From Haladaptatus sp. R4 (GTDB lineage: Archaea; Halobacteriota; Halobacteria; Halobacteriales; Haladaptataceae), in the NCBI RefSeq assembly GCF_001625445.1, contig NZ_LWHG01000033.1, positions 1 to 64,000 of the forward strand: DNA of 64,000 nt. Reading direction: 5' to 3'. Position 1 is the first letter of the stretch. Every line of letters starts with the position of its first letter. Both the position numbers and the translations under genes were made by a program. This document shows, in pieces, positions 13,380-62,428 of this stretch. The notes beneath the pieces were generated by a model that was not told the origin of the DNA, made no database searches, and saw only the letters and a list, made by a program, of their open reading frames with translations.

Positions 13380-13856
13380 TTACTGAGTGTCTTCCCGGTC
13401 GAACTCGCTGCGAGCATGTGCTTCTTGTCGAGTGTCGAGACTGCCACCTGCACCCTCCAACGCCGCCAACACTTGCACTGCATGTGGACCTGGCGTGATC
13501 GTCTCAGTCTCGTCATCATACTCGATCACATCCAAATCCACGAGTTTCGGCACGTGGGAGTGATAGAGCGATGTATACATCTCCTGGTACGTGAGCGTCG
13601 CGATGTTCGCCTCTTTCGTATCAGTTTCCCACGCCGCGAGTTTGGTCGCGAGGTCATCGAGTGACCATTCTGTCTCTTCGGCGAGAGTGTAGACGAGGTA
13701 GCGTCGTCGTGGATGCCCAATCGCCTCGAAGACGGGTTGTAACTCGAGGACGACCTCTGAGACATCGATATCGAGATCGCGCTCGGCGGCGCTCTCCTCG
13801 CCGGACTGACTGGAATGGTTCTCCCACTCGTCGGGAGGTGGCTCGTTCCCCGTCAT
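13380..13856 (-). CDS. DUF7344 winged-helix regulator of DUF7344-HalOD1 operon
   Basis: 158 residues from ATG 13856; the frame is open further upstream, but that part does not resemble the family. Core: LQPVFEAIGHPRRRYLVYTL, EETEWSLDDLATKLAAWETD, and SLYHSHVPKLVDLDVIEYDD. It is about as similar to the 44672 gene as paralogues are. It is the likely DNA-binding partner of the HalOD1 protein downstream. Confidence 0.8.
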   Translation of the reverse strand: MTGNEPPPDEWENHSSQSGEESAAERDLDIDVSEVVLELQPVFEAIGHPRRRYLVYTLAEETEWSLDDLATKLAAWETDTKEANIATLTYQEMYTSLYHSHVPKLVDLDVIEYDDETETITPGPHAVQVLAALEGAGGSLDTRQEAHARSEFDREDTQ

Positions 13857-14172
13857 AGTCGATGCTGAGGCGTCAAACGAAAAAAAAAATTCCGGTAGAC
13901 ACTGTTTTCCCGACCATATTCGACAGATACGTACTTCGTCGCCGTATCGGACTATCCATAGGTACTGGTACATTCTCAGTGTGATTTTTCGAAGGTTCTC
14001 GATACTGACTAGCGATGATATCCAGAATCGTTGATGTGCCCGACCAGTGGACAGTCGGTCTGTATTCGTACGGAGGACAGTCGGCCATGCAGAAATAGTG
14101 CCCACCCTGACGTCAAACACCCCGCCTTTCAAGTGAAACCCAACAGCACAGACAACCAGCACTAGCCAGCCT

Positions 14173-14541
14173 GACAGTCCACTACTACCACACCGCAGTT
14201 CCGGAGTAAATCACCTGTCCACTACCGGGAGACACCTTCTCCTTCCACAATCACTCCCGGTCTCACAGACAGTCCCATTGGCTCATCCCCACTGACAGTC
14301 CGGCTGCTGATTCACGGAAAACAGTCCGGTGACCGCAACCAGTCCACGTCACACCTCGTCACAGCACGCTGGACAGTCCTCCCGGTCGTCACCAGATATG
14401 ACCATCACCCGCTGGTGTCGGGATGACAGTCCCACGGGCTGTTACACTCCCAACGTCTGTTCTGCTAGTCGGTAGCGGACAGTCCAGAGTTGCTTTGTCC
14501 AACTCCGGGTTGGCTATCCTCACCTCCTGGAGCCAGTCCGG
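14173..14541. repeat. ACAGTCC iteron-like array
   Basis: Seven ACAGTCC sites (starting near 14174, 14269, 14295, 14321, 14373, 14426 and 14479), all in the same orientation, plus two CAGTCC variants (14340, 14535). Most spacings are close to 26 bases or its double. The region 13857-14764 has no gene. The same motif forms larger arrays at 53254-54350. Such helically phased repeats are typical of replication or partition protein binding sites. Confidence 0.7.
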
Positions 14542-14577
14542 CAGTACGTTCATTGAAAACCCGGAGTCTCACCTAGT

Positions 14578-14661
14578 GGCACCCCCACCATAGCACCCGT
14601 GTTGGCACCCAGATCTTCGTGAAAACAGTGGGCACCCCAACCAATGCATCCACTGGCACCC
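14578..14661. repeat. GGCACCC array
   Basis: Five GCACCC sites (14579, 14593, 14604, 14631 and 14655), mostly in the form GGCACCCC, directly after the ACAGTCC array. The same order, ACAGTCC sites then GGCACCCC sites, occurs at 53371-53862, so the two arrays form one functional or ancestral unit. Confidence 0.65.
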
Positions 14662-14764
14662 CTCTCCCGTCGCTCATCGGATTTCATCACCTTGCCCGGG
14701 ATAGAGGGACTGTCAGCACTCGTTGCTCTTAGTGACCGTCCTGTGCTGTCTCACAGCCAGAAAG

Positions 14765-21920: not shown

Positions 21921-22113
21921 TGAGCGACGATACCGAGAAAATACTCGATGAGACACTGTTACGGCACATTGCTCGTCGATTGGACGCTCTCACTCGTTGA
22001 ATCTGTCTCTGTCTTTCCGCACGAACGTCCGGAATCGGTTGTAGCGTGGTTTGATCTTCGGTATTTTCCTGACACAATTCAAAAGGTTGTATTCGAGATC
22101 CGTGTCTACACGA
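21921..22113 (+). pseudogene. truncated partner gene of the DUF7342 protein
   Basis: From ATG 21921 the frame encodes MSDDTEKILDETLLRHIARR and then LDALTR before a stop. In another frame the similarity continues (VSVFPHERPESVV, then RYFPDTIQKVVFEIRVYTN) up to 22113, where SWIM sequence takes over. The C-terminal half of the expected protein is absent. It is therefore inactivated by a frameshift and by replacement with a SWIM fragment. Confidence 0.6.
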
Positions 22114-22253
22114 ACCTTCTGCAAACACATGGCTGCCGTCGAAACCGCAACAGACGACGGATGCTCGACGCCTTCCCCTCCGAGGACGACAACGAGACCG
22201 AACCCGACGATTGTGATTGTGACGGTCTCGGTGGCTTCCTGTGCTGGGCAAGC
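22114..22253 (+). pseudogene. SWIM gene remnant (3' part)
   Basis: It begins inside the SWIM motif (FCKHMAAVE equivalent), carries a one-base deletion near 22160, and ends in the Cys-rich tail. It is joined without a gap to the truncated gene before it. Confidence 0.6.
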
Positions 22254-22327
22254 TTCATACAATCGTCACACTCATGGAGTAAATGACCAACACGAGGGAT
22301 CGGAATGGTCATCATTCGGTTAGCTAT

Positions 22328-23014
22328 CTACTCAGTGACCGCGTCCATTCGCTCATCGCCGCGCTCGTTTTCGTCGCCGTTCAGGCTTGCGGTCACTCGT
22401 TCGACGAGCAGCGGAAGAGTCGAAACCCCGGTACCAATCACGGCTCCCGTGACTTTCCCCTTCGTCCCAAACCGTTTGCCGACCTCGTATCCTGTTCTTG
22501 CGTGCCGAACACCGTCTAAATACCGCTCAATGTCACTCACCCCACTGAACGGTTGTGGTGGTTCTTCGGGGTCAAATGTCTCACGGGTGCTGTTGTACGC
22601 ACCGTACATCGTACCTATCCCGCCCCCGAGAACCGCACCGTACGGTCCGGCGATGTATCCTCGTCGCGCCCCTTGGAACGCGCTCTTCGCTGCGTAGCGA
22701 TGGTCAATTGCGTCGACAAACTCTCGAATTTCGATTGCAAGCGTGGTCGTCGATCGGTTTGCTGTTGCCGCAATCGCCAATGGGTCCGACGGTGTTTTCA
22801 AACTTTGGTTGTTCATGTGTTCCCGAACGATATCGACCGCTTCTCTCGCCGACGTGGCGGCGCTCGATAGCTCATTGTATGCAATGGTCCCATTTCTGAC
22901 CGTCTCTCGTGCGGCGGTTTCTCCCACGTTACGCCCTACGTGTGACACCGCTTCTGTTTGCTCCGTTACGTCCTCGGCAACCTCGCGTACGCGATTTCGG
23001 AGTTGAAGTTCCAT
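22328..23014 (-). CDS. glycine-zipper-containing protein, unknown
   Basis: About 228 residues from ATG 23014 (the frame is open to 23047). The N-terminal helical half (LRNRVREVAEDVTEQTEAV) is followed by RRGYIAGPYGAVLGGGIGTM and a second Gly-rich GKVTGAVIGTGVS segment, typical of glycine-zipper membrane-inserting helices. It could associate with membranes, but no family is recognised. Confidence 0.55.
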   Translation of the reverse strand: MELQLRNRVREVAEDVTEQTEAVSHVGRNVGETAARETVRNGTIAYNELSSAATSAREAVDIVREHMNNQSLKTPSDPLAIAATANRSTTTLAIEIREFVDAIDHRYAAKSAFQGARRGYIAGPYGAVLGGGIGTMYGAYNSTRETFDPEEPPQPFSGVSDIERYLDGVRHARTGYEVGKRFGTKGKVTGAVIGTGVSTLPLLVERVTASLNGDENERGDERMDAVTE

Positions 23015-23331
23015 ACATCTTGATAGTGGTTCTACAGTCCTGGCCATTCGCTTTGCGCATGTAAGGTCCTTCTAAGGGAAGCACGATTGGCATCAAAGAG
23101 GAAAGATATGGAGAGCCTGAGCAATATTTCATATATTTTGGATTACTATCAATCGGTTGCTTAGGCCGTCGGATGAGCGCTCACTATCCACTCGGTATGT
23201 GACGTATGCTTCTTATGGACAGTTACTAGCTAACATGTTATCAACTAGCTGTCCGATCATAGTCTGTTTGGACTATTGTTTTGCTTGATCAACACTCTTA
23301 TGGAAAACACGTTCTAAGAGTAGATGTGACA

Positions 23332-23607
23332 ATGAGTGTAACGGCTAGTTCACAGTCTCTGGATGGTATGTGTGCCAATCGAGCGAGCGCCGTCGCTCTT
23401 GAGGCATTAGTACAATACGACGACCTCGATCTCGACGAAATGGGCCTTCGACTCTACGATTTGGTTGATCCAGAGGCACTCGATAGCCTGTTTTGCCATC
23501 AGGAAGAATCTGCCCCTTCTGTAGAGTTCGAGGTTTGCGATGCTACGGTCCATGTATGGCAATCAGATGGCGAGATCCGAGCACGGGTCAATGATGAACA
23601 TGACTAG
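23332..23607 (+). CDS. HalOD1 output-domain protein
   Basis: About 91 residues from ATG 23332. Core LRLYDLVDPEALDSLF, then VEFEVCDATVHVWQSDGEIR. A short stand-alone HalOD1 domain; its 3' side is followed within 75 bases by a SWIM remnant. Confidence 0.65.
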   Translation: MSVTASSQSLDGMCANRASAVALEALVQYDDLDLDEMGLRLYDLVDPEALDSLFCHQEESAPSVEFEVCDATVHVWQSDGEIRARVNDEHD

Positions 23608-23679
23608 CTCACTGGGGCGCACAGAGAAGAAATCGAGAGCCTTGAAATCGAGCCCCGGTAGAGTTGTTACCCTCGTTAG

Positions 23680-23938
23680 CAACACCTACGGCAAACATAT
23701 GGCCGCCGTTGAGAATGCGACTGACGACGGAACGCTCGACGCCTTCCCCTGGAGACGACGACGATACCCAACCCGACAACTGCGACTGTGACGGTCTTAA
23801 CGGGTCCCATGCTGGCCGTGCGTGCGAACGGGACGAACAGAACTACCGAACGAACCACCGCTGCAGCCCTTTTTATCCATGGCACGCCAATTGACGTTCT
23901 CGGATCTCACCGAGCAGCGAACGCTCAGGGCAGATCCT
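23680..23938 (+). pseudogene. SWIM 3' remnant followed by SprT 5' remnant
   Basis: Bases 23680-23852 match the second half of the SWIM gene with a one-base change of frame near 23750. Bases 23879-23938 are the SprT start (MARQLTFSDLTEQRTL) and break off after about 18 codons. The CTTTTTATCC leader before ATG 23879 is intact. The 195 bases after it have no gene. Confidence 0.65.
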
Positions 23939-24133
23939 GGAATAGTTGTGGGTTGTATTTGAAATACTGTGTGGCTGTTTGAGGAGATGAGATACCTCTT
24001 GATTTGAGATATAAAGGAATGCCTAAGCTCACGTATTTAGAGATAACCTTCTGAATGTCGAATATTCACTACCTCAACACAATCACCCGCTTCCAACGGA
24101 TTTAAGACATGGTGTTCCATAGTATTGGGTACA

Positions 24134-25258
24134 GTGAGCAATACCAAATTCAACCCATCCGAGATTGCGCGACGTGTACAGGACGATGACGCCGAAGAGC
24201 TGTTCGTTCTCGACGTCCGTCGAGAAGAGGACTTCGAAGAATGGCAGATTCCGGGAAGTACGAACGTACCAGTCTACGACGAACTCCTGGAGTACAATTA
24301 CGCCACGCTCGAAGATCACCTCGACGAACTCCCTGAAGACAAAGAGATAGCCGTCGTCTGCGTTGCTGGCATTACGTCCGCTCGCGCGGCCGAGTTCCTC
24401 CGCGAACATGGGTACGACGCCGAATCCATCGACAACGGAATGAACGGTTGGGGTCGCGTCCACCGCCAGTATGACCTCACCGCTGCTGATGGCGTAATTC
24501 AAACCATCCGTCCCGGGACAGGCTGTGTCTCCTATCTCGTCCACGACGATGACGAAGCGGTCGTTGTCGATCCCACTCAATACATTGAGGAGTATCTAGC
24601 CATTGCCGACGAACAAGACCTCGAGATCATCGGCGTCGCAGACACACACGCACACGCCGACCACGTTTCCGGTGCTCGTCGCCTCGCTGGCGAACTCGAC
24701 GTTCCGTACTACCTCCACGGCGAGGATGCAGGGGAACTCGATGGTGTGACCGAACTCACGGATGATGATGCAATCACTGTCGGTGACCGAACGCTCGATG
24801 TCATCTATACACCCGGCCATACGCCCGGTAGCGTCTCCTTCGAGTACGGCAACGTGCTCCTCTCCGGGGACACCCTGTTCCTCCGAAGCGTCGGTCGTCC
24901 CGATCTCGAAGACAGCTCCGAAGATGCCGTCCGCGAAGCTGCAAGCAAGCTATTCGAAAGCCTTGAGCGTCTCACCAATTACAACGATGGAACGCTCGTC
25001 CTCCCCGGGCACTTCAGCGATGAGACGGTTCGTCCACTTGCCACTGATCTCGATGAGCTCCAAGAAGAAACGACGAACGAACTTCTAAGCTACGTTGAGG
25101 CAGACGACGAGACTGCATTCGTCGAAACCATCGTTGACAGTCTCGCTGACGAGCCCGCCAACTATAACGAGATTAAGCAGATCAACTGGGGGAAAGAACA
25201 ACCTGGTGGAGACGTCGAATCCCTCGAACTCGGTCCGAACAACTGCGCGGCAAACTAA
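24134..25258 (+). CDS. rhodanese / metallo-beta-lactamase fusion (persulfide dioxygenase-like)
   Basis: About 374 residues from GTG 24134. An N-terminal rhodanese domain (LFVLDVRREEDFEEWQIPGS) has its active Cys in VVCVAGITSARA, near residue 75. A metallo-beta-lactamase domain follows with the metal motif THAHADHVSG, then YTPGHTPGS, LLSGDTLF and VLPGHF. In ETHE1/Blh-type enzymes this combination oxidises glutathione or other persulfides to sulfite and passes sulfane sulfur on. The MFS gene 18 bases downstream fits a sulfur export role. The soluble enzyme appears intact. Confidence 0.85.
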   Translation: MSNTKFNPSEIARRVQDDDAEELFVLDVRREEDFEEWQIPGSTNVPVYDELLEYNYATLEDHLDELPEDKEIAVVCVAGITSARAAEFLREHGYDAESIDNGMNGWGRVHRQYDLTAADGVIQTIRPGTGCVSYLVHDDDEAVVVDPTQYIEEYLAIADEQDLEIIGVADTHAHADHVSGARRLAGELDVPYYLHGEDAGELDGVTELTDDDAITVGDRTLDVIYTPGHTPGSVSFEYGNVLLSGDTLFLRSVGRPDLEDSSEDAVREAASKLFESLERLTNYNDGTLVLPGHFSDETVRPLATDLDELQEETTNELLSYVEADDETAFVETIVDSLADEPANYNEIKQINWGKEQPGGDVESLELGPNNCAAN

Positions 25259-25276
25259 ACGCTAAACCGTTCTTCT

Positions 25277-26553
25277 ATGACCTACAGGCAGGGTATTCGA
25301 CGAAATTGGTCGCAATTTGCACTGCAACTCCTCATCGTGTTTGCAGTTGGACTAACGATCGGTACCGAGCGGAACGTCGTCCCCGTCCTTGGCGAGATAT
25401 TTTAGGGGTCAAATCGATACTCGTCGTCGGATCGTTCGTGGTGAGCTTTGGCTTCGTCAAAGCGTTACTCAACCTCTATGGAGGAAAGTGGTCGGAATCG
25501 TATGGTCGCAAGCCGATTCTTATTGGTGGGTGGCTCATTGCATTACCAATTCCGATCATCCTGATCTATGCACCAAACTGGTGGTGGATCACGCTGGGGA
25601 ACGTTCTCCTCGGAATTAATCAGGGATTGGCATGGAGTATGAGCGTCAACGCAAAGATCGATCTCGCCGGAAGCGATGCTCGTGGGCTCGCCGTCGGACT
25701 TGACGAAGCATTCGGGTATGGTGGAGTCGCCCTCGGCGCATGGGTCACGGGCATCATCGCTGCACAATACGGACTTCGACCTGCCCCCTTCTACTTCCTT
25801 GCAAGCGTTATCGTACTCGCATTCGTTATCTCGGTTCTGTCTGTGAAGGAGACGCTTCCCTATGCAGAGGCCGAAGCTGCGAATCAGACTAGCGAGACGG
25901 ACGCTGAGCTTCCGTTTCAATCGATACTGAAACGTGCGACATGGGGTGACAAAACGCTGTTTGCAGCATCGCAAGCCGGAAATGTCGAGAAGTTCGTCGA
26001 CGCGCTAGTCTGGATCGCCTATCCCCTTTTCTTAACGACTGCTGGGTTGTCAGTCGTGGAGGTTGGGACAGTTATTGGGGTCTATGGAGGTCTCTGGGGG
26101 GTTCTTCAATTATACACCGGAAAGCTCGCAGATGACATCGGTCGGCGTCCGCCTGTCGTGACTGGGATGTTCATTGCTGGCATCGGTGTGCTTACGACAG
26201 TGATCGTCAATGGATACTTGTTCTGGCTCATAACCGCTGGCATCACAGGGGTTGGAATGGCGCTTCTCTACCCCAACCTCATCACAGTCGTGGGTGATGC
26301 CGCTCACCCATCGTGGCGGGCGACTGGCCTTGGCGTGTATCGAATGTGGCGTGACGCGGGGTACGGATTCGGAGCCATCGTGATCGGCCTAACAGCTGAT
26401 CTTGTCTCAATGGAAGCCGCGTTCTATCTCGTTGCGATAGCGATGTTCGTCTCAGGGGGTATTACACTCGTGTGGATGCGAGAGACGCATCCTGAACAGG
26501 ATACGGATGGAGGCCTTACAACTCAGATATCGGGATCCTCTAGCGACAATTGA
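25277..26553 (+). pseudogene. MFS transporter with a one-base frameshift
   Basis: About 12 hydrophobic segments of a major facilitator transporter. From ATG 25277 the first 43 codons (for example WSQFALQLLIVFAVGLTIGT) run into TAG at 25403. Adding one base near 25396 restores GEDILGVKS and joins the long frame (SFVVSFGFVKALLNLYGG, then WSESYGRKP, the loop 2-3 motif). The rest is intact. The final stop TGA is formed where a SWIM remnant begins, so the C-terminus may have been reset by recombination. A sequencing error cannot be excluded. Confidence 0.75.
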
Positions 26554-33045: not shown

Positions 33046-33108
33046 GTTTTCGATACCATTCCGTCGTAGGAGAAGAGTTAATACACTATCCATAGAACAT
33101 GTATTGTG

Positions 33109-33675
33109 ATGTCAACGGACGACCGAATCTCGACAACCCCCAACCACGAGGAAACGTTCAACGACCTTCTCACCTACGCTGAACTCCTGAACACACCTCA
33201 ACTTGCCCGCCTCTACATCTACATTCTCCAGAATGGGCCAGTCGCAATCGAGACGATCAAAACGGATCTCGATATGGCCCACTCGACGACCTACAAATAT
33301 ATCGGGCAACTCGAGGAGATGGGTGTGCTGTCCCGCCACGACGATGAGACACCAGCAATGGTCACCGTCGAACCGATTCGTCTCCAAATCGAGACCGAGC
33401 ATGGCAACGTGACTGCAACACCAACCCTCATCGACGCGATTGGCCGCCAGCACGATACAGAGGACATCCGCGTCTTCGTCGAGCGACAGGGAATCGCGAA
33501 ACTGGCCGCGGCGCTCCACTACACGCTCCGGGTCATGAATGGTGAACTCACACAACGGACTGGGGCATCCAAACTTGGTGTTCATCCCGTTGAGGGAATG
33601 ACCGTTTTCACTGCGTTACAGGACGTCGTCGAGGAGGCGACTAACTACGATCCCTATCTGGAGCGAGCCGAATAA
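33109..33675 (+). CDS. HTH antitoxin-like regulator of PIN toxin
   Basis: About 188 residues from ATG 33109. A winged helix near LARLYIYILQNGPVAIETIK and AHSTTYKYIGQLEEMGVL and a C-terminal helical domain parallel the 9691 gene. The stop overlaps the start of the PIN gene (33675). The AGTTAATACACTAT stretch upstream resembles half of the 19-bp palindrome. Confidence 0.75.
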   Translation: MSTDDRISTTPNHEETFNDLLTYAELLNTPQLARLYIYILQNGPVAIETIKTDLDMAHSTTYKYIGQLEEMGVLSRHDDETPAMVTVEPIRLQIETEHGNVTATPTLIDAIGRQHDTEDIRVFVERQGIAKLAAALHYTLRVMNGELTQRTGASKLGVHPVEGMTVFTALQDVVEEATNYDPYLERAE

Positions 33676-34205
33676 TGGGAGGGGCCGAGATTCCGAGCGA
33701 CAGCACTGCGATTATCGACAGTAGTGTCCTATTCGCAATGGGTGGGCCGTCGAACGAGAAATACCAGGCGTTCGAGCGATTCGTTCGCCAGCGGAACCTC
33801 ACCGTCACAGTCCCAGAACAAGTTGCTGCGGAGTTAGGTGAGAGCCCTGATGCATACGCCTACCAGCGCGATCGATTGCGAGCAGCCCAAGATGCAGGAT
33901 GGTTGGAGCCAGGTCGAATTGACTTCTCAATTCCTCGTGTTCCGGAAGTCGTCGACAAAACGCGAAGACGGATGTTGAGTCTCTCAGCCAATGACGTCAC
34001 GGAAGACGAAATCGAGAAAACGGATACTATTCTCGCTGGATTGGCCTATCAATTCGTCGTCGAAGATGCAGCTCACGTTGCGGTACTTGTGAGTGATACG
34101 ATCGCGGAGCAAGCGATTCGAGATGTCTTGGTAGCTGTTGGTGTAGAGGACCGGATCTCAGTTGTGGAGGGCCGAGTGTTGTTGAACGATCTTATTGACC
34201 GATAG
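33675..34205 (+). CDS. PIN-domain-like ribonuclease, toxin candidate
   Basis: 176 residues: AIIDSSVLFAMGGPSNEKYQ at the N-terminus, EDEIEKTDTILAGLAYQF in the middle and a late VLVSDTIAEQAIRD segment give the expected acidic residues. Paralogous to 10221-10748 and similarly coupled to an HTH gene. Confidence 0.7.
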   Translation: MGGAEIPSDSTAIIDSSVLFAMGGPSNEKYQAFERFVRQRNLTVTVPEQVAAELGESPDAYAYQRDRLRAAQDAGWLEPGRIDFSIPRVPEVVDKTRRRMLSLSANDVTEDEIEKTDTILAGLAYQFVVEDAAHVAVLVSDTIAEQAIRDVLVAVGVEDRISVVEGRVLLNDLIDR

Positions 34206-52436: not shown

Positions 52437-53110
52437 TTAGTTCGCCGTCGTCGTGTTCCACAGGCCGTAGCCGCCCTGTTTGGCTTGACGCTGCTTCTGG
52501 CGGAACTGCTGGCGTTTGCTGAACTCGCCGTCTGTTACTCGTGCATATCCAGTCCGGAGTAACTGGGTGTTGTACAGCCACTCTCCCGTGTAGATATACG
52601 CTCGAAGATGGCCGTCTGCGTCACTCTCAATGGTCGGGTCTGTGACGACGGTGACGACACGATGGGCAAGCTGGGCGTCAGTCGTCTGGAGTGCTCGTTT
52701 GTGGATCTGACCACTGTCAGGCACGCGCACACCGATGAGGTCGACCGTCTGATTCTCACCGTTGTGTTCGATGGTGACGGTCGTCGGATCGACGACTTTC
52801 GTTACTCGTGCTTGGAAGCGCTCGCTCTCCTCGGGTGTATCAATGCGAGCGGTGGTTGTTGTCCGGAGATACGTCGTTTGGGTCGGTTGAGTGGTATGCG
52901 TTGTTGTGCTGGCTGTTTGCGTGGCTGTTGTGGTTGTGGTCGCTGGCTCGGTTGTCGTCGTTGATGCCGTGCTGGTCGCCGTCTGCGTCGGCTCTGTGCT
53001 GGCCGGTGTTGTTGTGGTATCGTTACTACTCCCGCCGAGTCCAAGGCCGCCGAGACAGCTACGAGGACGATGAGCAGGGCAAGGGCGAGTAGTGGAAGTG
53101 ACCGCTGCAT
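52437..53110 (-). pseudogene. thermonuclease-like exported protein, frameshifted signal region
   Basis: From ATG 53110, MQRSLPLLALALLIVLVAVS is a clear signal segment. At about 53055 the frame must change to reach the Thr-rich linker and the nuclease-like part (TVTIEHNGENQTVDLIGVRV, then HLRAYIYTGEWLYNTQLLRT). The domain is paralogous to 2869-3420. If translated in one piece the protein would be exported, perhaps as a lipoprotein. The GLGLGG stretch at the junction is repetitive, so a sequencing slip is also possible. Confidence 0.65.
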
Positions 53111-53253
53111 ACTGGAGGTGGTTTCCGTGTTTAGTTCAAGGTTGGGGGTGCCGAATGATGCACGAAAGCGAGCGATTGAATGCGCCGAGCCGAACGCTCG
53201 ACTGAATACTGCGGCGAATGTCCCGCTGCTGCTAACGCGGGTGGGACAGTCAG
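53111..53253. other. start of the 1.6-kb gene-free region
   Basis: Upstream flank of the nuclease-like gene, without repeats or a gene of its own. The gene-free region continues to 54727. Confidence 0.3.
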
Positions 53254-53636
53254 ACTGCTATAGCCGGTGGACAGTCGGATTGTTCGGAGAGAGAGAGGAC
53301 ACCAGACTTCCTTTGTAATCTGGGTGCCTACAGGCGCTTCACCGCCGTTTGTGGCCGGTCCGCTCTCAGTGACAGTCCTCCAACACGGAGCTCACGGCTG
53401 ACAGTCCCTCTGGGGATCTGCCGGAGGACAGTCATCCCTGCTGATACTGGCACTCGTGGAGTGTCCTTACAGACAGTTCCTCGTGCTGTCGCTGCTCGCC
53501 GTCCACCTGCTTCGGTAGGGTGGACAGTCCCACCGGCTAGACCATGCCGGAGCCCAGGGCGTGCTGGTCGCCAGATCTGACAGTCCCCTTTGTCGGTGGC
53601 CGGCGGGTACGGCAGTCTGTCGCTCGTGGACAGTCC
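53254..53636. repeat. forward ACAGTCC array
   Basis: Five ACAGTCC sites (53372, 53401, 53524, 53580 and 53630) plus GACAGTC variants near 53254, 53271 and 53428, all in the same orientation. Same motif as at 14173-14541. Confidence 0.7.
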
Positions 53637-53701
53637 TCCGTGCTGGTCCGCTCCCACTGACGCGGCTCACTTCAGTGAAACTGCGGTGTGTCGCACACAC
53701 T

Positions 53702-53862
53702 GGCACCCCACTAGTGCGCTCACAGTAGCACCCAGATGATGCAGTCACACCGGCACCTGGACAGTGCGCTCGTGCTGGCACCCCAGCTTGTCTCTCACCG
53801 TGCATTACGGTGTGTCGTGCACAGTGGCACCCCCTCTGTTCGGGTGGAGAGGTTGGCACCCC
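53702..53862. repeat. central GGCACCCC array
   Basis: Six sites: GGCACCCC at 53702, 53778, 53826 and 53855, plus AGCACCC (53728) and GGCACC (53752). They occupy the middle between forward and inverted arrays of the other motif. Confidence 0.7.
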
Positions 53863-53905
53863 ACATTGTCGCTTAGCGGCGTTTTCGCTGTGTTCTGGCA
53901 GGCCA

Positions 53906-54350
53906 GACTGTCCAGTGTTCTCTTCACGTCTCTTTTCACAGGTATCCCGGCCATTCTCGTCTGTGCTGGCCGTCACTCGGTTTCTGGGGTGCTGTCGCGG
54001 TACTGTTGCTGTTGCGGTCCTGTTACAGTCTTCCTGCTGTCCGGTCCTCCTATTCAGTGTTGTTCATGGCGTCTTGCCGCCAGTGCTGTTCGTTCCTGTT
54101 GGAAGTCCGCTCTTCGTTGCGGGCCCGCTGGTCGCATCCGTGGACTGTCCCCTGTTCGCTCGTCTGTTGTTCCCCGCCGGGTCCGTCATAGCCTGACTGT
54201 CCCACAGTGTCGCTCCCTGTGTTCTTCGCGTGACCTCAGGTGGACTGTCCCAGTGCTGTCGCTCTGTTTTTCGGTGGTGGATCTGCTTAATGGACTGTCC
54301 CATTCGTGTTGCTCTGGTTTCCTGTGGTGGTTCTGCTTGGTGGACTGTCC
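53906..54350. repeat. inverted GGACTGTCC array with 50-bp periodicity
   Basis: GACTGTCC at 53906, then GGACTGTCC or TGACTGTCC at 54142, 54194, 54242, 54292 and 54342, spacings 52, 48, 50 and 50. The last units are true 50-bp tandem repeats that also share GCTCTG, TGGTGG and TCTGCTT. The motif is the reverse complement of GGACAGTCC, so the three arrays form a large imperfect symmetrical structure. Confidence 0.75.
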
Positions 54351-54727
54351 TCTGTGTCGGTGTGTTGTATCCGCCGCTTCTCGTGGGATCTGTCCGGCTC
54401 TGTGTCGCCCTCTGGGGTGCCCTCTGTGCGCCAGTGTTGTCTACGTCTATATTATGATATATTGGGGGTGCAGTCTCTGGCGCTTTGTTGGGTGCCCACT
54501 GTTGGCTATGATCTATTTTTTCTTCTCTGGATCGGGGGTGGTTGTCCCCCGCGGTGTGTCGCGTACATCTATCTCATCATTTTGACAGTACTGTTGTTCA
54601 TCCCCTCCGCGTTATTTTTTGGTCTCTTTCACTGCTTCATGCACCGCCGTCGGGATGCGGTGGCTCAATTGAATCCAACCATAATATTATAGTTGGTGTA
54701 GTTCGTTAGCCTTGCGTATAGCTTCCT
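54351..54727. other. gene-free stretch before the HTH gene
   Basis: T- and G-rich on the + strand, with a single GGGTGCCC near 54490. The open frames here lack haloarchaeal codon bias. An AATATTATAGTTG stretch at about 54680 may be the promoter of the next gene. Confidence 0.35.
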
Positions 54728-55237
54728 ATGTCATCTGATAACTCCGCCACTTTGACCACGGGACACGCCGACGAGATGGAAGAAAAACTGAATCGTGGAA
54801 ATGAACATCGGCGCAACATCCTGGGTGCCCTTGCCACTGCTGACAGCGACACCCTCAACACGTCACAAATCCGAGAACGGGCTGACGTCCCCAGTGGGAG
54901 TATGAACCACTATCTGGAAACTCTAACAGAGTGGGGCATCGTCGAGGATACCGGACAACGAGAATACAGTCGTGGCGGAGGTCGGAAAGCGCGTGTCTGG
55001 CGACTCTCCGAGATGGGCGAGACATTCATCGAGGAACGACCAGATGCACTCAGTACACCAAAGACTGCCGCGACAGCAGAGCGGGTCACAGCGCTCGAAA
55101 ATCGCATCGAAGACCTTGAAGCTGAAACGAGGAAACGGCGGAAGACAATCGTGGAAATTCTGAAAGTGATCGCAGATGCCCAAGATGAGCACACTCAACA
55201 GCAGGTCACAGAGATTGTGACTAACGCCGATTTATAA
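54728..55237 (+). CDS. winged-helix protein with coiled coil
   Basis: 169 residues: a winged helix (NEHRRNILGALATADSDTLN, then PSGSMNHYLETLTEWGIVED and a basic RGGGRKARVWRL wing) and a C-terminal coiled coil (ALENRIEDLEAETRKRRKTI). It converges with the VirD4-like gene, overlapping by six bases, and faces the repeat arrays, so it may bind them or control the transfer operon. Confidence 0.75.
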   Translation: MSSDNSATLTTGHADEMEEKLNRGNEHRRNILGALATADSDTLNTSQIRERADVPSGSMNHYLETLTEWGIVEDTGQREYSRGGGRKARVWRLSEMGETFIEERPDALSTPKTAATAERVTALENRIEDLEAETRKRRKTIVEILKVIADAQDEHTQQQVTEIVTNADL

Positions 55238-58075
55238 CAAGCGGTCAAGGGAATCTGTCGTCGTCTCCTTGTCGTTCGCGTTCTCACTGTTGTCTGTGGT
55301 TCCACTGGCTGTCGCGGGTGTAGAGTTCGCCTCTGTGCTGTTGGCAGTCGGCTCGGAGCAATCGTTGTGTACGTCTCTCTCAGTTGGTGTTGTCTCGTCC
55401 TGCGTATCTACCACCCTGTCGGCTGCCTCTGCTTCTTCATCGTCCAGCAGGTCCGTCAGCGGCGTCTGGGTGTTTCCTTCGTATAGACGGAGATCCATCG
55501 GCGTCTCTGTCTCCGGTGGCACCACAACTACGTCCCACTCCACAGTGTGGAGATCATCGTCCATCTCGTACTCGGGAATGATCGGCGGCTTCACATTCCG
55601 GTTACCACCCCTTGGATAAGCACTCACATCGGTAAAGATGTCCGCCGCTGAATCAAACCGGGCGTGAACCGTCCCATCCCTGTCCCGAAGCACGTACTTC
55701 CCTGTTTGTTCGTCGTGAATCCACACGTTCTCACGATTTCCTGGCCGGGTGATCGTCTCACCCTCGATACTGAGCGTATTCGTTCCCGTGTAGAATCGCC
55801 GTTCACCCTCGACGCCGTGGTTGCTCCGACAACAGAATGGCTCGTGGGCAACTGTATCGTAAACCTTCTCGGCCACTTCCTCGCGGGCAAAGAACAAGCA
55901 CCGATGTCCGTCGTTATGCGCCTGTGCAAGATTCTTCACCGTCTGTGATGGCTGCGTACTACCGGTTGTGTGCTCGCTTTCGATATAGACGTCTTTCGTC
56001 CCCGCAAGCCGATTCAAGAGCGGGTGGTCCTCCCGGTAGCTGTTGACTGTGTCTGCCACCGTCTCCGGGTCCTCGTCCAACCCGATCACTAGTACGTCAT
56101 CCAGCCGGGCAAGACCGTCGGGCATGGCTTCTCCAGTCTGCTCAGGAATTTCAAAGATAAACCCGAGTTGAGTCATTGGGATGTAGGCATCGGCCATCGG
56201 TGCCCAATGCTCGGCCTTGCCGTCGTTCTCCGAGTCACCGAGATTCAGGAACCCGGTATCAAGCGGCTTCACTTCCATCTCGTCCTCAACTTCACGGTGA
56301 TCGAGATGCGTATCCGGCACTCGCTGCAAGACTTTTCGCCATGCTTTCCCAGCATCGGTCACATCGTCGCCAGGCAAATACCGGTTTAGCCGTTCAACAC
56401 ACGCCGCTATTTGCACCCAACCGCCCGGTTCACCCTGTCGAATGCTCTCATCGTAGACTGCTTTGAGCGTCTGATTGCGCAAGTGTTCATCTGTTCCGAC
56501 CGGGAGGTCTGCTGGATCGTCGGCAGTCGTTCCTTCGTTCAATTCTCCATACGGCAGTTCGCGCTGAATTTCGGCGTCGGTAATCGGCGGACTTCCATAC
56601 TGCTCCAGACTCCGGTGAATCACGTCCTCAGCGTCCTCTTCCGATCGAAGCGGTGGATACGGGGCAAAGGTATGGATTTTGAGCGGGTCAGAGTACTGCA
56701 TCCCGCCTTTGATGGGAATTCGCGTCCACACCTGGAAGTTCTCGGTCTCCATCAAATCCTCTTCAGTATATCCCTTGAACAACTTCGCAACGGGTCGTGC
56801 GTCTTCGTCGTTCGGGAGTCGGAAAATCACTGGGTTGTTGCAGTTCGCTTTGACGGCACTCAACACGCCTGCTTCTTTGAGTTGCTCGGGATACTGGCAG
56901 GCAATCGTCACTGACAGGCGCATCGAGCGGGCTCGAGCGAGCATATTTTTGACATCGAGATTCTGACTCGCGATGGCATCGAACTCGTCGAAAATGGCAA
57001 AGAACGGCTCGTTCTCTCCGTCCTCGAACGACCGGTTTTGCACAGCACTCCAGATCGGACGCATCACGCCAAGCGTGATCATCTGCTTCACGTCCTGGTT
57101 CGACACAGGCGTACGAACGATTACGATTTTGTTCTCGTCGATGATCTTCTGGAAGTCAATCGAACTCTCACGCTGGGCAATAATCCGGCGAATCACTCCG
57201 TTCTCAACCCAATTTTTCACTCGCGAGAGGAGAGGACGAACGGCGTCGTCGTCCATCTCGGCGATTTCATTGACGAACTCCTTGATGTACGGATCTTCAA
57301 CCTCCTCGGCAAACTGTTCGCGACGTTCTTGATTCAGGAGGACGAAGTAGAAATCGATCACCGAGTAGTCTTTGTCCGATTTCATCATCGCTCGACCCAT
57401 ACTCTCGGTAATCGCCCGCATGCGCGGCCCCCAATAATCGTCATTGTCAAGAATCGCTTTCAGGTTCTCGAGGCGATCCTCGATTTCGCGCTCTTGTTCG
57501 ACCTGGCGATCTGTCTCGGGGATTTCAAGGAAGTTGATTCCAACATCCCGATCAAAGTCTTCGTCGCCCGGTTCGATCCAAATCACATCGTCAAGGCGAT
57601 CCTCTGGCAGCAGTTGGAGGAGTTCTTTCGAGTCGCGTGCCTTGGGGTCGAAGTAGACGAAACCGTGGCCAGCGTACGCTAACTGTACCATCCAGTTCAG
57701 CAGCTCTGTCGTCTTCCCCGCACCCGTCGTTCCACATACCCAATTGTGCTGGAAGAGTGAGCCGAACTCAATCGGTACTTCGCGGAAGCCTTCCTGGGCG
57801 CTGTCGTTGTACCCCGTCCACAGCGGACCCTCTGGACGGTCACGCGAACCTTCGAGCAGTCGGCGAACCTTCGGCCCGGCGACGACGCCATGCTCTTCAG
57901 TGTGAGTGAGCACTTCTGCACCGCCAATGCGGTCGTTTCCAGTCGGCGTTATCTGATACGGTTCGCCGGTCGGTGCTCGAAGCTCATTCGGTATCTCGTC
58001 GATTTGCTCGTCGCGATCGGCGTCTACTGACTTGGTATCGGGGGTGTCGTCACCGCCGAATAGGTTGTCGAACAT
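55232..58075 (-). CDS. VirD4/TraG-type coupling ATPase
   Basis: 947 residues. Walker A GTTGAGKTT (about 115-123), Walker B AIFDEFD (about 360-366) and a hexameric-motor-like RSMRLSVTIACQYPEQLKEA segment near 385-404 place it in the HerA/VirD4 family. The C-terminal 450 residues are specific and end in a long acidic, disordered tail. No transmembrane segment is visible, which is common in archaeal relatives. It would hand DNA to the secretion channel. Last gene of the minus-strand cluster. Confidence 0.8.
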   Translation of the reverse strand: MFDNLFGGDDTPDTKSVDADRDEQIDEIPNELRAPTGEPYQITPTGNDRIGGAEVLTHTEEHGVVAGPKVRRLLEGSRDRPEGPLWTGYNDSAQEGFREVPIEFGSLFQHNWVCGTTGAGKTTELLNWMVQLAYAGHGFVYFDPKARDSKELLQLLPEDRLDDVIWIEPGDEDFDRDVGINFLEIPETDRQVEQEREIEDRLENLKAILDNDDYWGPRMRAITESMGRAMMKSDKDYSVIDFYFVLLNQERREQFAEEVEDPYIKEFVNEIAEMDDDAVRPLLSRVKNWVENGVIRRIIAQRESSIDFQKIIDENKIVIVRTPVSNQDVKQMITLGVMRPIWSAVQNRSFEDGENEPFFAIFDEFDAIASQNLDVKNMLARARSMRLSVTIACQYPEQLKEAGVLSAVKANCNNPVIFRLPNDEDARPVAKLFKGYTEEDLMETENFQVWTRIPIKGGMQYSDPLKIHTFAPYPPLRSEEDAEDVIHRSLEQYGSPPITDAEIQRELPYGELNEGTTADDPADLPVGTDEHLRNQTLKAVYDESIRQGEPGGWVQIAACVERLNRYLPGDDVTDAGKAWRKVLQRVPDTHLDHREVEDEMEVKPLDTGFLNLGDSENDGKAEHWAPMADAYIPMTQLGFIFEIPEQTGEAMPDGLARLDDVLVIGLDEDPETVADTVNSYREDHPLLNRLAGTKDVYIESEHTTGSTQPSQTVKNLAQAHNDGHRCLFFAREEVAEKVYDTVAHEPFCCRSNHGVEGERRFYTGTNTLSIEGETITRPGNRENVWIHDEQTGKYVLRDRDGTVHARFDSAADIFTDVSAYPRGGNRNVKPPIIPEYEMDDDLHTVEWDVVVVPPETETPMDLRLYEGNTQTPLTDLLDDEEAEAADRVVDTQDETTPTERDVHNDCSEPTANSTEANSTPATASGTTDNSENANDKETTTDSLDRLL

Positions 58076-58158: not shown

Positions 58159-59211
58159 TTACTCACTGCGCTGACTGTCAGCCGGAACTTCGCCGCCGCG
58201 TTGGGAGTAACGCCAGTCGATTTTCGGCGTTTCAATCTCCTTGTTTGGGATGTGTGCGGCACCAGCGAGTTCGCTTACCGAGAGGATCATCTCGCGGTCT
58301 TCCCACTCCCGAGCATGCAGTTTCTCGATGAACGCGCCACGCTCACTGGCAGGAACAGGGTCGTCGGTAAACCCCTGCTCGGTCATTGTGTTGTAGTAGC
58401 GAGTGAACATCCCCGCGACACCCCGTGCTCGTGATTCAGCTTCGTACTTGTCCGGTGAAACGGCAAGAATCCGCATGTTAGTGTGAAAGCCGTACTGTCC
58501 CCGTTGCATCTCGACGACGTCCGCCGCTTCGCGGTCCTTCTTACTCGCATCACGAGTACGGGGATTTAGCCAGCCGACAACCTGGTCCGACCGAAGCCCT
58601 TCGGCGACGTCGTCCACACTTTCACCCCGAGAGAAGAGTCCAGCATCCCCTTCCGTCCAGTCGTTTTTCGCGGGCCGGAAAACGACCTGCACCACAACCC
58701 GTGTTTCCGGCGTCGAGAGCATTTCACTCGTCACTTCGCCGTACGGGTCCCGCTCAAAGCCGTCGCCCTGGTGGTTCCGAATCGGGTAGTAGTAGTGACG
58801 GTTCAAGTCGAGTTCCGCACCCGCAATATAGTCGTCAGCATGGATTTGCGGAAATGCATCGCCGCCCTCCACTCGAAACACCTGCGTGTTCGAGTAGCTG
58901 TTCGCGACGCGTCGCCGGAACTTGTTTGCGGCACTCTCGTCGGCAGCGTGCATGTAGAACTTCAGCTTCTCCTCATCGAACCACAACTCGAAGGAGTGGT
59001 GCTGACTAATGTTCTTGTCGCGGAGTCCCTTCGTTCGAACGTCGTGAAGTGACTGGAGCATTGCGGCACCATCGACGATGCCCTGGTTGTCTTTGTAAGG
59101 ACGAATCCCGAGCAACACACCCGGCGTCTCGTCCACGGTTTGAGTGTACGACTCGTCAAGTTGCGTTGCCGTGTAGCTCCCCTGCGCCTCGTCACTGCCG
59201 AACAGGCCCAT
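58159..59211 (-). CDS. conserved conjugation-cluster protein, unknown
   Basis: 350 residues, soluble, acidic. Segments such as LLGIRPYKDNQGIVDGAAML and SFELWFDEEKLKFYMHAADE resemble the N-terminal non-ATPase domain found before archaeal coupling ATPases, so it may be a split partner of the VirD4-like protein. The start overlaps the VirB4 stop by one base; 83 bases separate it from the VirD4-like gene. Confidence 0.65.
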   Translation of the reverse strand: MGLFGSDEAQGSYTATQLDESYTQTVDETPGVLLGIRPYKDNQGIVDGAAMLQSLHDVRTKGLRDKNISQHHSFELWFDEEKLKFYMHAADESAANKFRRRVANSYSNTQVFRVEGGDAFPQIHADDYIAGAELDLNRHYYYPIRNHQGDGFERDPYGEVTSEMLSTPETRVVVQVVFRPAKNDWTEGDAGLFSRGESVDDVAEGLRSDQVVGWLNPRTRDASKKDREAADVVEMQRGQYGFHTNMRILAVSPDKYEAESRARGVAGMFTRYYNTMTEQGFTDDPVPASERGAFIEKLHAREWEDREMILSVSELAGAAHIPNKEIETPKIDWRYSQRGGEVPADSQRSE

Positions 59212-61259
59212 TAGAGCTCACCCCATTTGTCGGCGATGTACTCCTGGAAGGGACCATGCTCGCTGGCTTTGTAGCTATAGACAGTATCCTCAAATGGCGA
59301 CGCCCGAACTTGGGCGTGCATCCATCCTTGGACGTCCGCATAATCGACGAGATAGTCGGTATACCCGAGTCCCTGTTCACCGCGTTTGGCATGCTGAGTG
59401 ATGAACTGAAGTTGTTCGTCGTTCATCCCGAACCGCTCCTTTGCGTCTTGCTCTTCCAGTTTGTCCGTGTAGAAGAACTCTGTCGTCGGAATCTGCCCCA
59501 AGATCGCGCGTTTGTATTCCTGCATATCCGTGTCGTCAGCACTCGCGAAGTCACCCGGTCGGTGTGAGAGGAACCACAGTCCGGCGTTAAAGTGCCGCCA
59601 GTGGCGGGCCGACTGTTGAAGCCACGCCAGAATCTCCCTCGATTGGAAGAGATAGTGTGCTTCGTCGACGACAAAGAGTGTCTCGCCGGGCGCTCGTTTG
59701 ACTGCCTGATAGACTTGGCCGAGCATCAACTGGAGCATCGTCGCTTTGTCTGCCGCTGCCCCGAGTCCCTGAATCTGCTGAAGGTCGAGATACGACACCT
59801 GGCCCGGGCGAATATGGGCTTCTGACTTCCCGACGAGGGCATCGTGTTCACCGCCGTCTTTGAACCCACTGAGCCGCCGGAGTAGTGGTCCGGCGTTCTC
59901 TTTGATCTGAGCCTTCTCGAGTTCTGAATCGACGTAGTCACCCGGATTCCCACCCATATCATTGACGATTTTACGGAAGTTGGCCATCGTCGGGCTGTTC
60001 TCCGGTTTGTGCGTACTGACGTCGTTTTTCAGAATTCCTGCCCGTTCGTACGTGGCATTCAGCGCATCGGAAACGAGCGGAGTAAAGTCGCCGTTGGCGT
60101 CGCCGATCATATCGAGAATGAAGTTGCGGGCTTCGGTGAACTTCATGTCGTACGGATCCAGATTCCCCGACACTCGAAGCACATCCTCTGGCGTTTCCTC
60201 GATATGGAGCGGGTTGATTGTCTGTGACCCGTCCACCGTGATATGCTGACCGTTCATGAGTTCGACGAGACCACCGAACTCGCCCATCGTATCGCAGAGA
60301 ATCAGTGTGCGATCCTCACCAGCCAGATACCACTGAGTCGCTTGCTTACCGACGTGGTACGATTTTCCCGAGCCGGAACTCCCGATGGTAAGCCGATGAC
60401 CGGGTGCGACAGAGAACTGATTCTTGATGATCTCGCTGCCGTTCTGCACGTTTCGGCCCTGCTCGACACCGTTCTCCTGGTCGATGTACGCGGACACCGG
60501 CGGGAACGCTGCGGCGATTGTTCCCGACAACGTGAGTGAGTAGCGCTCGCGTGTAGAGACATCGGCGAACGCGTCTCGGCCGTTTGGTGAGCAGGATTCG
60601 AACAGCTCGGCCTGGCGCTGTTCCGGTGAAAGAACCGTTAGGTGAGCTGGCGCGCTTTCGAGCGTTCCTCTTACTTTCTCGCAAGCGCTTTCGAGTGCTC
60701 GGTGCTTCGCGATATCCAGCGTGAGTTCGTCTTCGTTCGCCAGCCCTTCCTCGATTCGCTCTTCGGCTTCATCCAGCGCCTGCCGGGTACCAGCTCGAAC
60801 TGTAACGTAGCCGCTCAAATCCCACGGTTGAGCCTGAGTGTGGTGGAGAAGCTTGTACATCTTCACGTACGGGTCGAGGTCGTCCTCGACGAGAATCGCG
60901 GAAACGTCGCTTACGTCTTTGCGCTCGTCGATGTTCGCGTCAATCTCCCCGATTGTGTCTTTCAATTCGAGTTCCGTTGCTCGCTTGTCCCGTGCCCGGA
61001 CGTCTAAGCACACATCGACGTCGACCCCTCGCATGGTGTAGATCTCCTCAAGAAATTTCTCACGGGGTTCGACCGGCCAATCGGCGATCCAGTAGGTCCG
61101 ACAGTACTGCTGGCCAGTGCGAACGTAGCCATCGCGAGCGTCGAACGTTTGCGGGGCCAGGAGTTCCTGTACCCGATCGTGGGCTAGGCCATCACTGTCG
61201 TTTTCGTCATCAGCGAGCGGGGCGAGCAAGCCTTCGCGGACCTGTGCAAGGAAGGACAC
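59211..61259 (-). CDS. VirB4/TraC-type secretion ATPase
   Basis: 682 residues from GTG 61259. Walker A GSSGSGKS (293-300), Walker B LFVVDEAH (528-535), and the family segment PTTEFFYTDKLEEQDAKERF near the C-terminus. VirB4 powers assembly or pumping of the type IV secretion channel from the cytosolic membrane face. The frame is open for about 25 codons upstream, inside the previous gene, so the true start is uncertain. Confidence 0.85.
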   Translation of the reverse strand: MSFLAQVREGLLAPLADDENDSDGLAHDRVQELLAPQTFDARDGYVRTGQQYCRTYWIADWPVEPREKFLEEIYTMRGVDVDVCLDVRARDKRATELELKDTIGEIDANIDERKDVSDVSAILVEDDLDPYVKMYKLLHHTQAQPWDLSGYVTVRAGTRQALDEAEERIEEGLANEDELTLDIAKHRALESACEKVRGTLESAPAHLTVLSPEQRQAELFESCSPNGRDAFADVSTRERYSLTLSGTIAAAFPPVSAYIDQENGVEQGRNVQNGSEIIKNQFSVAPGHRLTIGSSGSGKSYHVGKQATQWYLAGEDRTLILCDTMGEFGGLVELMNGQHITVDGSQTINPLHIEETPEDVLRVSGNLDPYDMKFTEARNFILDMIGDANGDFTPLVSDALNATYERAGILKNDVSTHKPENSPTMANFRKIVNDMGGNPGDYVDSELEKAQIKENAGPLLRRLSGFKDGGEHDALVGKSEAHIRPGQVSYLDLQQIQGLGAAADKATMLQLMLGQVYQAVKRAPGETLFVVDEAHYLFQSREILAWLQQSARHWRHFNAGLWFLSHRPGDFASADDTDMQEYKRAILGQIPTTEFFYTDKLEEQDAKERFGMNDEQLQFITQHAKRGEQGLGYTDYLVDYADVQGWMHAQVRASPFEDTVYSYKASEHGPFQEYIADKWGEL

Positions 61260-62428
61260 CTCTTTGTCGACGGCGTCGTCAGCACGGGTACTCGTTGCGA
61301 CCGGTTGCGAGACAGTGCCGCCGTCGGTCGTCGCTCGACCGTCGCAACGTCAGCAACTCCCGTCGATGGCGAGTCAGTCGCATCCACCGCTTCGGGGCGT
61401 GGGCTGTCACCGTCCTCGGCGCTATGCGGCCACACCGCGGCATCAACGTCCTTCGTCACACTGTCGGCATTGAAGGAGTGCTCGGTGCCACTCCAATACC
61501 GGCCCAGAAGGAGTGCGTGCTCGGCTGGACCGACTTGCGTGGTCTCACAGCCATCGGTACTTCCGAACGCCCTGGAGAGCCGGGAGAGCCGACTTTTCAC
61601 TTCCCGTTGCATCCGGCGGCGTTTGGCGTCCCACTGCTCATTATCGCTACCGAACAGCAGCGAGCGAATTTCGCCGTCGTCGGTCATGTCCGATACCGTC
61701 ACTTCATCCGGACGAACCTCGACGACGAGATAGTGCTGCCACTCGCGGGCGTTGAACCGGGGGAAGTCAGTGTTCTTGGTCCACGTGATGACGCTCCGAA
61801 GGAGCTTTCGCGCTAGCTTCCACTCCTCACCGGCGTACTTCGACGAGTAGAGTTTCGCCCGATACTTCGCGGTGACATCGCGGGGGTCAATCTCCAGGGC
61901 CGTGCTGAACAGGCGGAAATTGAAATCGCTCACGAGTTGGTCAAGTTCACCACGGATCCGACCGATCATCTCGCGGGCGTCACTCGTCTCCTGCATCGTC
62001 GTATTTCGGCCAGAGATCCGCGCCATCGCGACGAGTCGCCCGTCTTTCATCTCGGCAGAGCCATCGGCGTGGATCCGTTTCACGTCGTGTACAGTCGCCG
62101 CTTCATCGCCTGACTGTGGGAACCCGCGTTTGGCCTTCGCGTAGGCGAGCGGGGTTTTGATACGGTCCAGTCCCGTCGAGTACTCACCCGATGAGACGGC
62201 CAAACCAACAGCACCCAAGCCGCCGAATACACCGACACCGGCACCGATTAACGAAGGGCCGAGTGGAGCACCGAACAGGGCTGCAAGACCGCTGGCACCG
62301 ACGATACCGGCACCAGGCGTACCGTAGAGCAGGTCGTTCACTTTGAACCCGTGATAGTCGAGCCCGGAATCGACGTGTGGCGGGACGAGTTGGCTCGGAT
62401 CTTTCGGCGCGTCTGCGTTGTCTGTCAT
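61184..62428 (-). CDS. PrgI-like membrane component of secretion system
   Basis: 414 residues. An N-terminal pair of hydrophobic segments (GIVGASGLAALFGAPLGPSL and IGAGVGVFGGLGAVGLAVSS) is followed by a cytosolic domain with VHDVKRIHADGSAEMKDGRL. This layout fits the small membrane protein that precedes VirB4 in conjugation clusters. The last 45 residues overlap the VirB4 start in another frame and look non-native (RNRSQRVPVLTTPSTKRCPS), so a frameshift near the end is possible. Confidence 0.6.
   Translation of the reverse strand: MTDNADAPKDPSQLVPPHVDSGLDYHGFKVNDLLYGTPGAGIVGASGLAALFGAPLGPSLIGAGVGVFGGLGAVGLAVSSGEYSTGLDRIKTPLAYAKAKRGFPQSGDEAATVHDVKRIHADGSAEMKDGRLVAMARISGRNTTMQETSDAREMIGRIRGELDQLVSDFNFRLFSTALEIDPRDVTAKYRAKLYSSKYAGEEWKLARKLLRSVITWTKNTDFPRFNAREWQHYLVVEVRPDEVTVSDMTDDGEIRSLLFGSDNEQWDAKRRRMQREVKSRLSRLSRAFGSTDGCETTQVGPAEHALLLGRYWSGTEHSFNADSVTKDVDAAVWPHSAEDGDSPRPEAVDATDSPSTGVADVATVERRPTAALSRNRSQRVPVLTTPSTKRCPSLHRSAKACSPRSLMTKTTVMA

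Follow-up and report, generated by a model that had tools for sequence, protein, structure and literature searches.

A directional array of repeated sites beside a VirD4/VirB4 cluster in Haladaptatus sp. R4: a candidate transfer site of haloarchaeal conjugative plasmids

How DNA is chosen and processed for archaeal conjugative transfer is an open question, with no relaxase recognised (PMC9905601). A locus of the haloarchaeon Haladaptatus sp. R4 may bear on it. In the 64,000-nucleotide stretch analysed here (the window; positions 1 to 64,000 of contig NZ_LWHG01000033.1), the 1617-bp gap between the end of a thermonuclease gene at 53110 and the start of a winged-helix gene at 54728 (53111-54727) holds no supported gene, in agreement with a first-pass annotation that had marked ~1.6 kb as gene-free, and it contains an ordered array of repeated sites next to genes of a type IV secretion system (T4SS). 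What would such an array do? The first-pass annotation had offered an origin of transfer, a replication origin or a centromere; our analysis, all of whose support is comparative sequence analysis, speaks best for the first, places the centromere second and disfavours the replication origin. We put at about even the chance that this region acts in cis for the transfer of a haloarchaeal conjugative plasmid, as an origin-of-transfer (oriT)-type locus the bulk of which would be an accessory recognition array.

Four blocks of sites in the fixed order A-C-T-c (about 22 sites) extend across ~1.3 kb of the window (53245-54497), accompanied by a further short motif and by isolated c-type sites. Genomes, contigs and loci used for comparison are given below by their G, C and L handles.

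53245..53635, plus strand: A block, eight GACAGTC sites (starts 53245, 53270, 53371, 53400, 53427, 53523, 53579 and 53629), consensus (G/T)GACAGTCC, with a degenerate extra at 53472
53702..53861, plus strand: C block, six GGCACCC-type sites, consensus TGGCACCC(C/A), spacing mostly 25 bp (exact GGCACCC at 53702, 53777, 53826 and 53855; variants at 53727 and 53752)
53906..54349, plus strand: T block, six GACTGTC sites (starts 53906, 54143, 54195, 54243, 54293 and 54343), the last five ~50 bp apart
54415..54496, minus strand: c block, two GGGTGCC sites (54415 and 54490), the true reverse complement of the C site
53146..53328, minus strand: isolated c-type sites, one each at 53146 and 53322, both on the array's left side
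53487..54562, plus strand: TGTCGC motif, at 53487, 53618, 53689, 53867, 53993, 54208, 54257, 54403 and 54557

The A and T sites are near-palindromes that share same-direction flanks, (G/T)GAC(A/T)GTCC, and differ in the central base alone; a model with direct flanks beats one with inverted flanks for A versus T by 1.45 +/- 0.24 nats per site. The same-direction flanks rule out T sites as a plain inversion of A sites, and C/c is the sole true inversion pair in the array. TGTCGC is a constant third motif at half-lattice positions, ~12, 37, -13 and -38 bp from A, T and C sites, and its orientation is nearly invariant (53 direct vs 1 inverted). The three motif classes of the first-pass annotation are present in the order that it gave, but its inverted third block and the symmetry that it drew from inverted sites were wrong in detail, since A and T differ by their central base and TGTCGC runs in one direction; the c block, which lies past the stretch it described, and TGTCGC had been overlooked. 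A left-hand c block of four sites occurs in G183:C5. At 54450-54465 of the window there is a short AT-rich element (tattatgatatattgg), and relatives repeat GTGATATATT-nGGG beside the c block.

The repetition exceeds that of shuffled sequence: GACWGTC occurs 14 times, where 2000 dinucleotide shuffles give 0.43 on expectation and 3 at most, and C and c sites together occur 8 times (0.43 expected, maximum 5). When the 64-kb window is scanned, with no motif given, for sequence that repeats at lags of 24-28 and 49-54 bp, the maximum falls at 53153 (z 14.8). Neighbour-site distances in 18 arrays fit a lattice of ~25.5 bp (n=262, resultant length 0.715); the same 18 arrays show no helical phasing at 10-10.5 bp. 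In all nine pairs of relatives compared, sites are 84-98% identical vs 60-79% for the intervening sequence and elsewhere. The array region matched no RNA family in Rfam at E up to 1, and a tRNA search found none. A coding role was rejected: translations of the long open frames are basic, as haloarchaeal proteins are not, and nothing pointed to conservation of these frames.

The first-pass annotation had suggested looking for the same motif order on other haloarchaeal plasmids, and the A-C-T-c order was indeed found again. A distant blastn search matched 18 haloarchaeal plasmids, the arrays of which keep the same block order; across 18 arrays there are six violations, all from one array. Six further plasmid loci, retrieved after the order rule was fixed, also obey it, two of them (L130 and L134) without blocks at one end, and the order recurs in G183, G192, G197, G326 and elsewhere in G000. 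Altogether, about 20 other A-C-T-c arrays, in which the A block likewise comes first, lie on plasmids of Haladaptatus, Natrinema, Haloterrigena and another family. Each of the five plasmids of Haladaptatus halobius PSR5 carries an array with a downstream small gene and T4SS genes, the T4SS genes of plasmids 4 and 5 being oppositely directed and a few kb off. One array per plasmid is common, and some replicons carry two. A sequence model built on the C block, applied with strict filters to 391 genomes of the class, detected arrays in 7, several of them away from any T4SS, and a two-copy pattern search of the 391 genomes gave, besides true arrays, mostly isolated chance-like matches. Viral contigs yielded five matches to a triple-T pattern, none of the five with A-C-T-c order, and one of these (L137) falls inside a repetitive phage-like gene.

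The genes around the array in the window are as follows.

54728..55237, plus strand: winged-helix protein with a long C-terminal coiled coil; Pfam HTH_IclR and MarR-type fold matches
55232..58075, minus strand: VirD4-type coupling protein; Pfam TrwB_AAD_bind and TraG-D_C, NCBIfam TraD-type matches below cut-off
58159..59211, minus strand: conserved T4SS-cluster protein; no Pfam match, same place beside VirD4 in relatives
59211..62428, minus strand: VirB4-type ATPase gene in two overlapping frames (59211-61259 and 61184-62428)
52437..53110, minus strand: thermonuclease (SNase) gene, interrupted; Pfam SNase on 52437-52730, two stops in the joined frame

The AlphaFold model of the winged-helix protein has a mean predicted local distance difference test (pLDDT) score of 79.5, and its gene is convergent, tail-to-tail, with the VirD4 gene. 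In relatives the VirB4-type gene is a single open frame (1071 amino acids in G000:C7 and 1046 amino acids in G183:C5); its split in the window therefore means that the T4SS here may be inactive, or reflects a sequencing error. A second thermonuclease-like gene is present at 2869-3420 of the window. The usual order among relatives is thermonuclease gene, array, winged-helix gene, convergent VirD4 and T4SS cluster, with the thermonuclease gene missing at some loci; wherever a full array and T4SS occur in the orientation of the window, the winged-helix gene adjoins VirD4. The first-pass proposal of a protein assembly site beside the VirD4/VirB4 cluster is well borne out: the array, winged-helix gene and VirD4 recur as a unit across plasmids and families. 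The lattice score near the 3' end of VirD4 is higher with a convergent winged-helix gene (n=26) than without one (n=19; Mann-Whitney p=1.6e-5, a value that, like the other p value below, is optimistic because the compared loci and arrays are related). VirD4 loci without the winged-helix gene (L054-L056, L060-L063, L068-L070, L072-L079 and L082) have no array. Elsewhere in the window, 9691-10748 and 33106-34205 hold paralogous pairs of winged-helix and PIN-like genes that look toxin-antitoxin-like, and members of the 9691-10748 pair also adjoin arrays in L058 and L065.

We favour a transfer site because the array is tied to one T4SS class, because copies of it sit on replicons without a T4SS nearby and because it is inherited as a mosaic with respect to VirD4. 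As in a bacterial-type oriT, it adjoins the genes of a coupling protein and a VirB4-type ATPase, and, as expected of an accessory array, it adjoins the gene of a small, plasmid-encoded, predicted DNA-binding protein. Largely complete arrays are kept on replicons with no T4SS nearby and secondary copies also occur, a situation known from bacterial oriT mimics, and array, winged-helix gene and VirD4 are mosaic relative to one another. In the mechanism that we propose, the winged-helix/coiled-coil protein that the plasmid encodes (54728-55237), perhaps together with another protein, would coat the array to form a directional nucleoprotein complex; this complex would select its own plasmid and deliver it to VirD4, the coupling protein encoded by the neighbouring gene. 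Processing of the DNA would begin in or near the centre of the array, at the C/T boundary. Across this boundary AT skew steps from -0.20 to -0.47 (Wilcoxon p=1e-4, 17 related arrays). In a distant array (L071:5900-6990) AT skew flips sign at the centre, from +0.3 to -0.4, which suggests mirrored halves.

Which protein reads the sites? The winged-helix protein is the obvious candidate, because its gene adjoins the array and because arrays are missing from T4SS loci that do not have it. In more distant winged-helix/VirD4 pairs the same lattice, built from other motifs, lies upstream of the winged-helix gene: GGnTGTCC plus CGTCGCTC in G183:C3, with a similar unit in G277:C2; GGACCCC/GGCCCCC plus TGTCGTCAC in G324 (L108); and further forms in L081, L080 and L071. 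Across array types a TGTCGTCGCTC-like half is constant and a GG..CC half variable. In L106 the A and T sites are retained while C has become GGCATCC and its partner c GGATGCC, a joint drift as would be expected if one protein reads both. A recognition helix of the form GSxxxH, or close to it, is found at loci with A/C arrays and not in the proteins that accompany other arrays; a few loci with this form of helix have no array. Of the two T4SS plasmids in genome G183, each bears an array of a different type. The motif set thus goes with the plasmid rather than the host, and a host protein as sole determinant of the motifs is unlikely. VirD4 as sole determinant is also unlikely, as L006 keeps the motifs with a VirD4 about 32-36% identical.

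Several observations weigh against a transfer site of this kind. With regard to the reader, the A and C motifs are unchanged while identity of the winged-helix protein ranges from ~28 to 93% between loci, and a pairwise test gave no correlation of its identity with array similarity. The winged-helix protein may thus not read A and C, in which case there would be at least one further reader, or else its contacts would be conserved in a way that overall identity hides. With regard to linkage, L109, L110 and L111 are winged-helix/VirD4 loci that show no clear array, and many haloarchaeal T4SS loci lack one; the array is not universal in haloarchaeal conjugation, because a large second class of T4SS loci is without it. 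The first-pass annotation had named the absence of arrays from related replicons that still replicate and transfer as what would refute its reading, and this holds in part, for that second class. With regard to processing, no relaxase family was recognised among the T4SS proteins of the window and ten proteins of a 42-kb array plasmid, in a search that was not exhaustive, and archaeal conjugative plasmids are not known to have one (PMC9905601). The comparative data identified no nick site, only the AT-skew step at the array centre, which could stem from the motif composition of the right half or from cargo instead of a nick.

Some other genes of array plasmids deserve mention. Two proteins of ~1480-1500 amino acids are encoded at 22024-26460 of G183:C5 and at 71402-75907 of NZ_CP111039.1; that of G183:C5 has no Pfam or NCBIfam match. 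They resemble a replication or DNA-processing enzyme and could be candidates for a relaxase or primase that has escaped recognition. On the 42-kb plasmid, an RPA-like gene (no Pfam match) and a DNA methyltransferase gene, both read from the sequences, are on the opposite side of the array from the T4SS; the likeness of this side to the leading region of bacterial plasmids is a weak hint.

The main rival is a centromere or stability site, in which the winged-helix protein would position or pair plasmids via the array, in the manner of R388 StbA or of TubR/AspA-type proteins, and the closeness of transfer genes would reflect coupling of inheritance to transfer; we think it improbable, yet not by a wide measure, and stability and transfer roles could be combined. 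In its favour, a long iterated array lies upstream of the gene for a dimer-type winged-helix/coiled-coil protein, and arrays are kept on replicons that have lost the T4SS. There is also a precedent in R388, where StbA binds two sets of five 9-bp repeats, upstream of its own gene and beside oriT and the transfer region, and affects both stability and transfer (PMC3098194); the haloarchaeal array differs from these stbDRs in its four blocks, 26-bp lattice and directional centre. However, no ParA-type ATPase, as a ParABS-type system would have, lies near 14 annotated arrays, and on the complete plasmids examined separate ParA loci stand roughly 10-30 kb from the array. Moreover, array presence follows one T4SS class, and G326:C4 has an array with no winged-helix gene on its contig, which would be odd for a centromere.

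That the sites are operators, with the winged-helix protein and others acting on them to regulate the promoter of the winged-helix gene or the transfer genes, seems to us distinctly less probable again. The array is directly upstream of the gene for a presumptive regulator with an IclR/MarR-type domain, but it is 1.25 kb long, its last site is ~235 bp upstream of the start codon and away from the promoter-like AT-rich element near 54680, and a fixed four-block order on a lattice exceeds what regulation needs. The T4SS genes run towards the winged-helix gene, so their promoter does not lie in the array region.

A hot spot of recombination or integration, the lattice being a recombinase platform, would explain half arrays and inserted genes, and the window itself has a truncated copy.

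14050..14715, plus strand: second array, A x8, C x4 and T x1, right half missing

Homology of this copy to a full array stops just past the second T-type position of L058, and a DUF7344 gene (13380-14162) flanks it. At several loci half arrays stop inside or just after the C block, and inserts lie between T sites in L052, where an insert-bearing spacer of ~1.1 kb separates them, and in L126 (5143-6262), where the insert between the first and later T sites is a DUF7344-like gene. We nevertheless hold a recombinase platform very unlikely: breakpoints vary between loci, no dedicated recombinase gene is consistently adjacent, and the apparent ends of half arrays are biased because the loci were partly found with the C-block model. 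Least probable of all is a replication origin of the plasmid, for which speak the iteron-like repeats and the common single array per plasmid, as in H. halobius PSR5, and which is disfavoured because orc1/cdc6, ParA and the GC-skew minimum are far from arrays (no orc1/cdc6 within 8-9 kb of 14 annotated arrays; orc1/cdc6 and ParA ~28 kb from the array on an 80-kb plasmid; and, in the GC-skew analysis that the first-pass annotation had proposed, a minimum at 25-27 kb vs an array at 8.5-9.7 kb on the 42-kb plasmid, ~16 kb apart), some replicons, moreover, carrying two arrays.

The transfer-site reading finds its closest parallels in bacterial oriT loci. The oriT/SmpO system of the staphylococcal pWBG749 family (PMC8136818) likewise has a plasmid-encoded small DNA-binding protein with sites beside its gene, site variation between plasmid subtypes, copies on non-conjugative plasmids and a mosaic relation to transfer genes. 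SmpO, however, is a ribbon-helix-helix protein with two GNNNNC-centred sites ~65 bp apart and a relaxase site, whereas in the haloarchaeal array ~22 sites, which fall into several classes, follow a 26-bp lattice, and no relaxase has been recognised. At the F-plasmid oriT (PMC12117103) TraM also has repeated accessory-protein sites, sbmA-C, and contacts the VirD4-type coupling protein, but the locus is much shorter, with a known relaxase, TraI, a nic site and no winged-helix protein; the winged helix plus coiled coil of the haloarchaeal protein is unlike the ribbon-helix-helix TraM and SmpO. Streptomyces clt, a cis-acting transfer locus, also contains short repeats (8-bp TRS), which are read by TraB itself, a single FtsK-like protein that transfers DNA without a T4SS (PMC4170104). 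In contrast, the haloarchaeal locus has a VirB4/VirD4 system with an additional winged-helix protein, the only ATPases found are of VirD4/VirB4 type, and motif change does not seem to follow the divergence of VirD4 (L006).

No account of an archaeal origin of transfer turned up in the open-access papers searched. On the boldest reading, which we think less likely than not, the region would be the first origin of transfer recognised in archaea, one without a classical relaxase, in which a directional lattice with a winged-helix/coiled-coil reader loads VirD4/VirB4; the module would then be a new class of conjugative DNA-processing locus with several motif subtypes and mobilisation-only copies. 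At 1.3 kb, the array is a well-delimited fragment suited to cloning and testing, for which natural subtypes, truncated copies and array-only replicons can serve as controls. If it were instead a centromere, it would be a new, multi-block kind linked to conjugation; if it does serve transfer, the mobilisable plasmids would include many that are typed as non-mobilizable.
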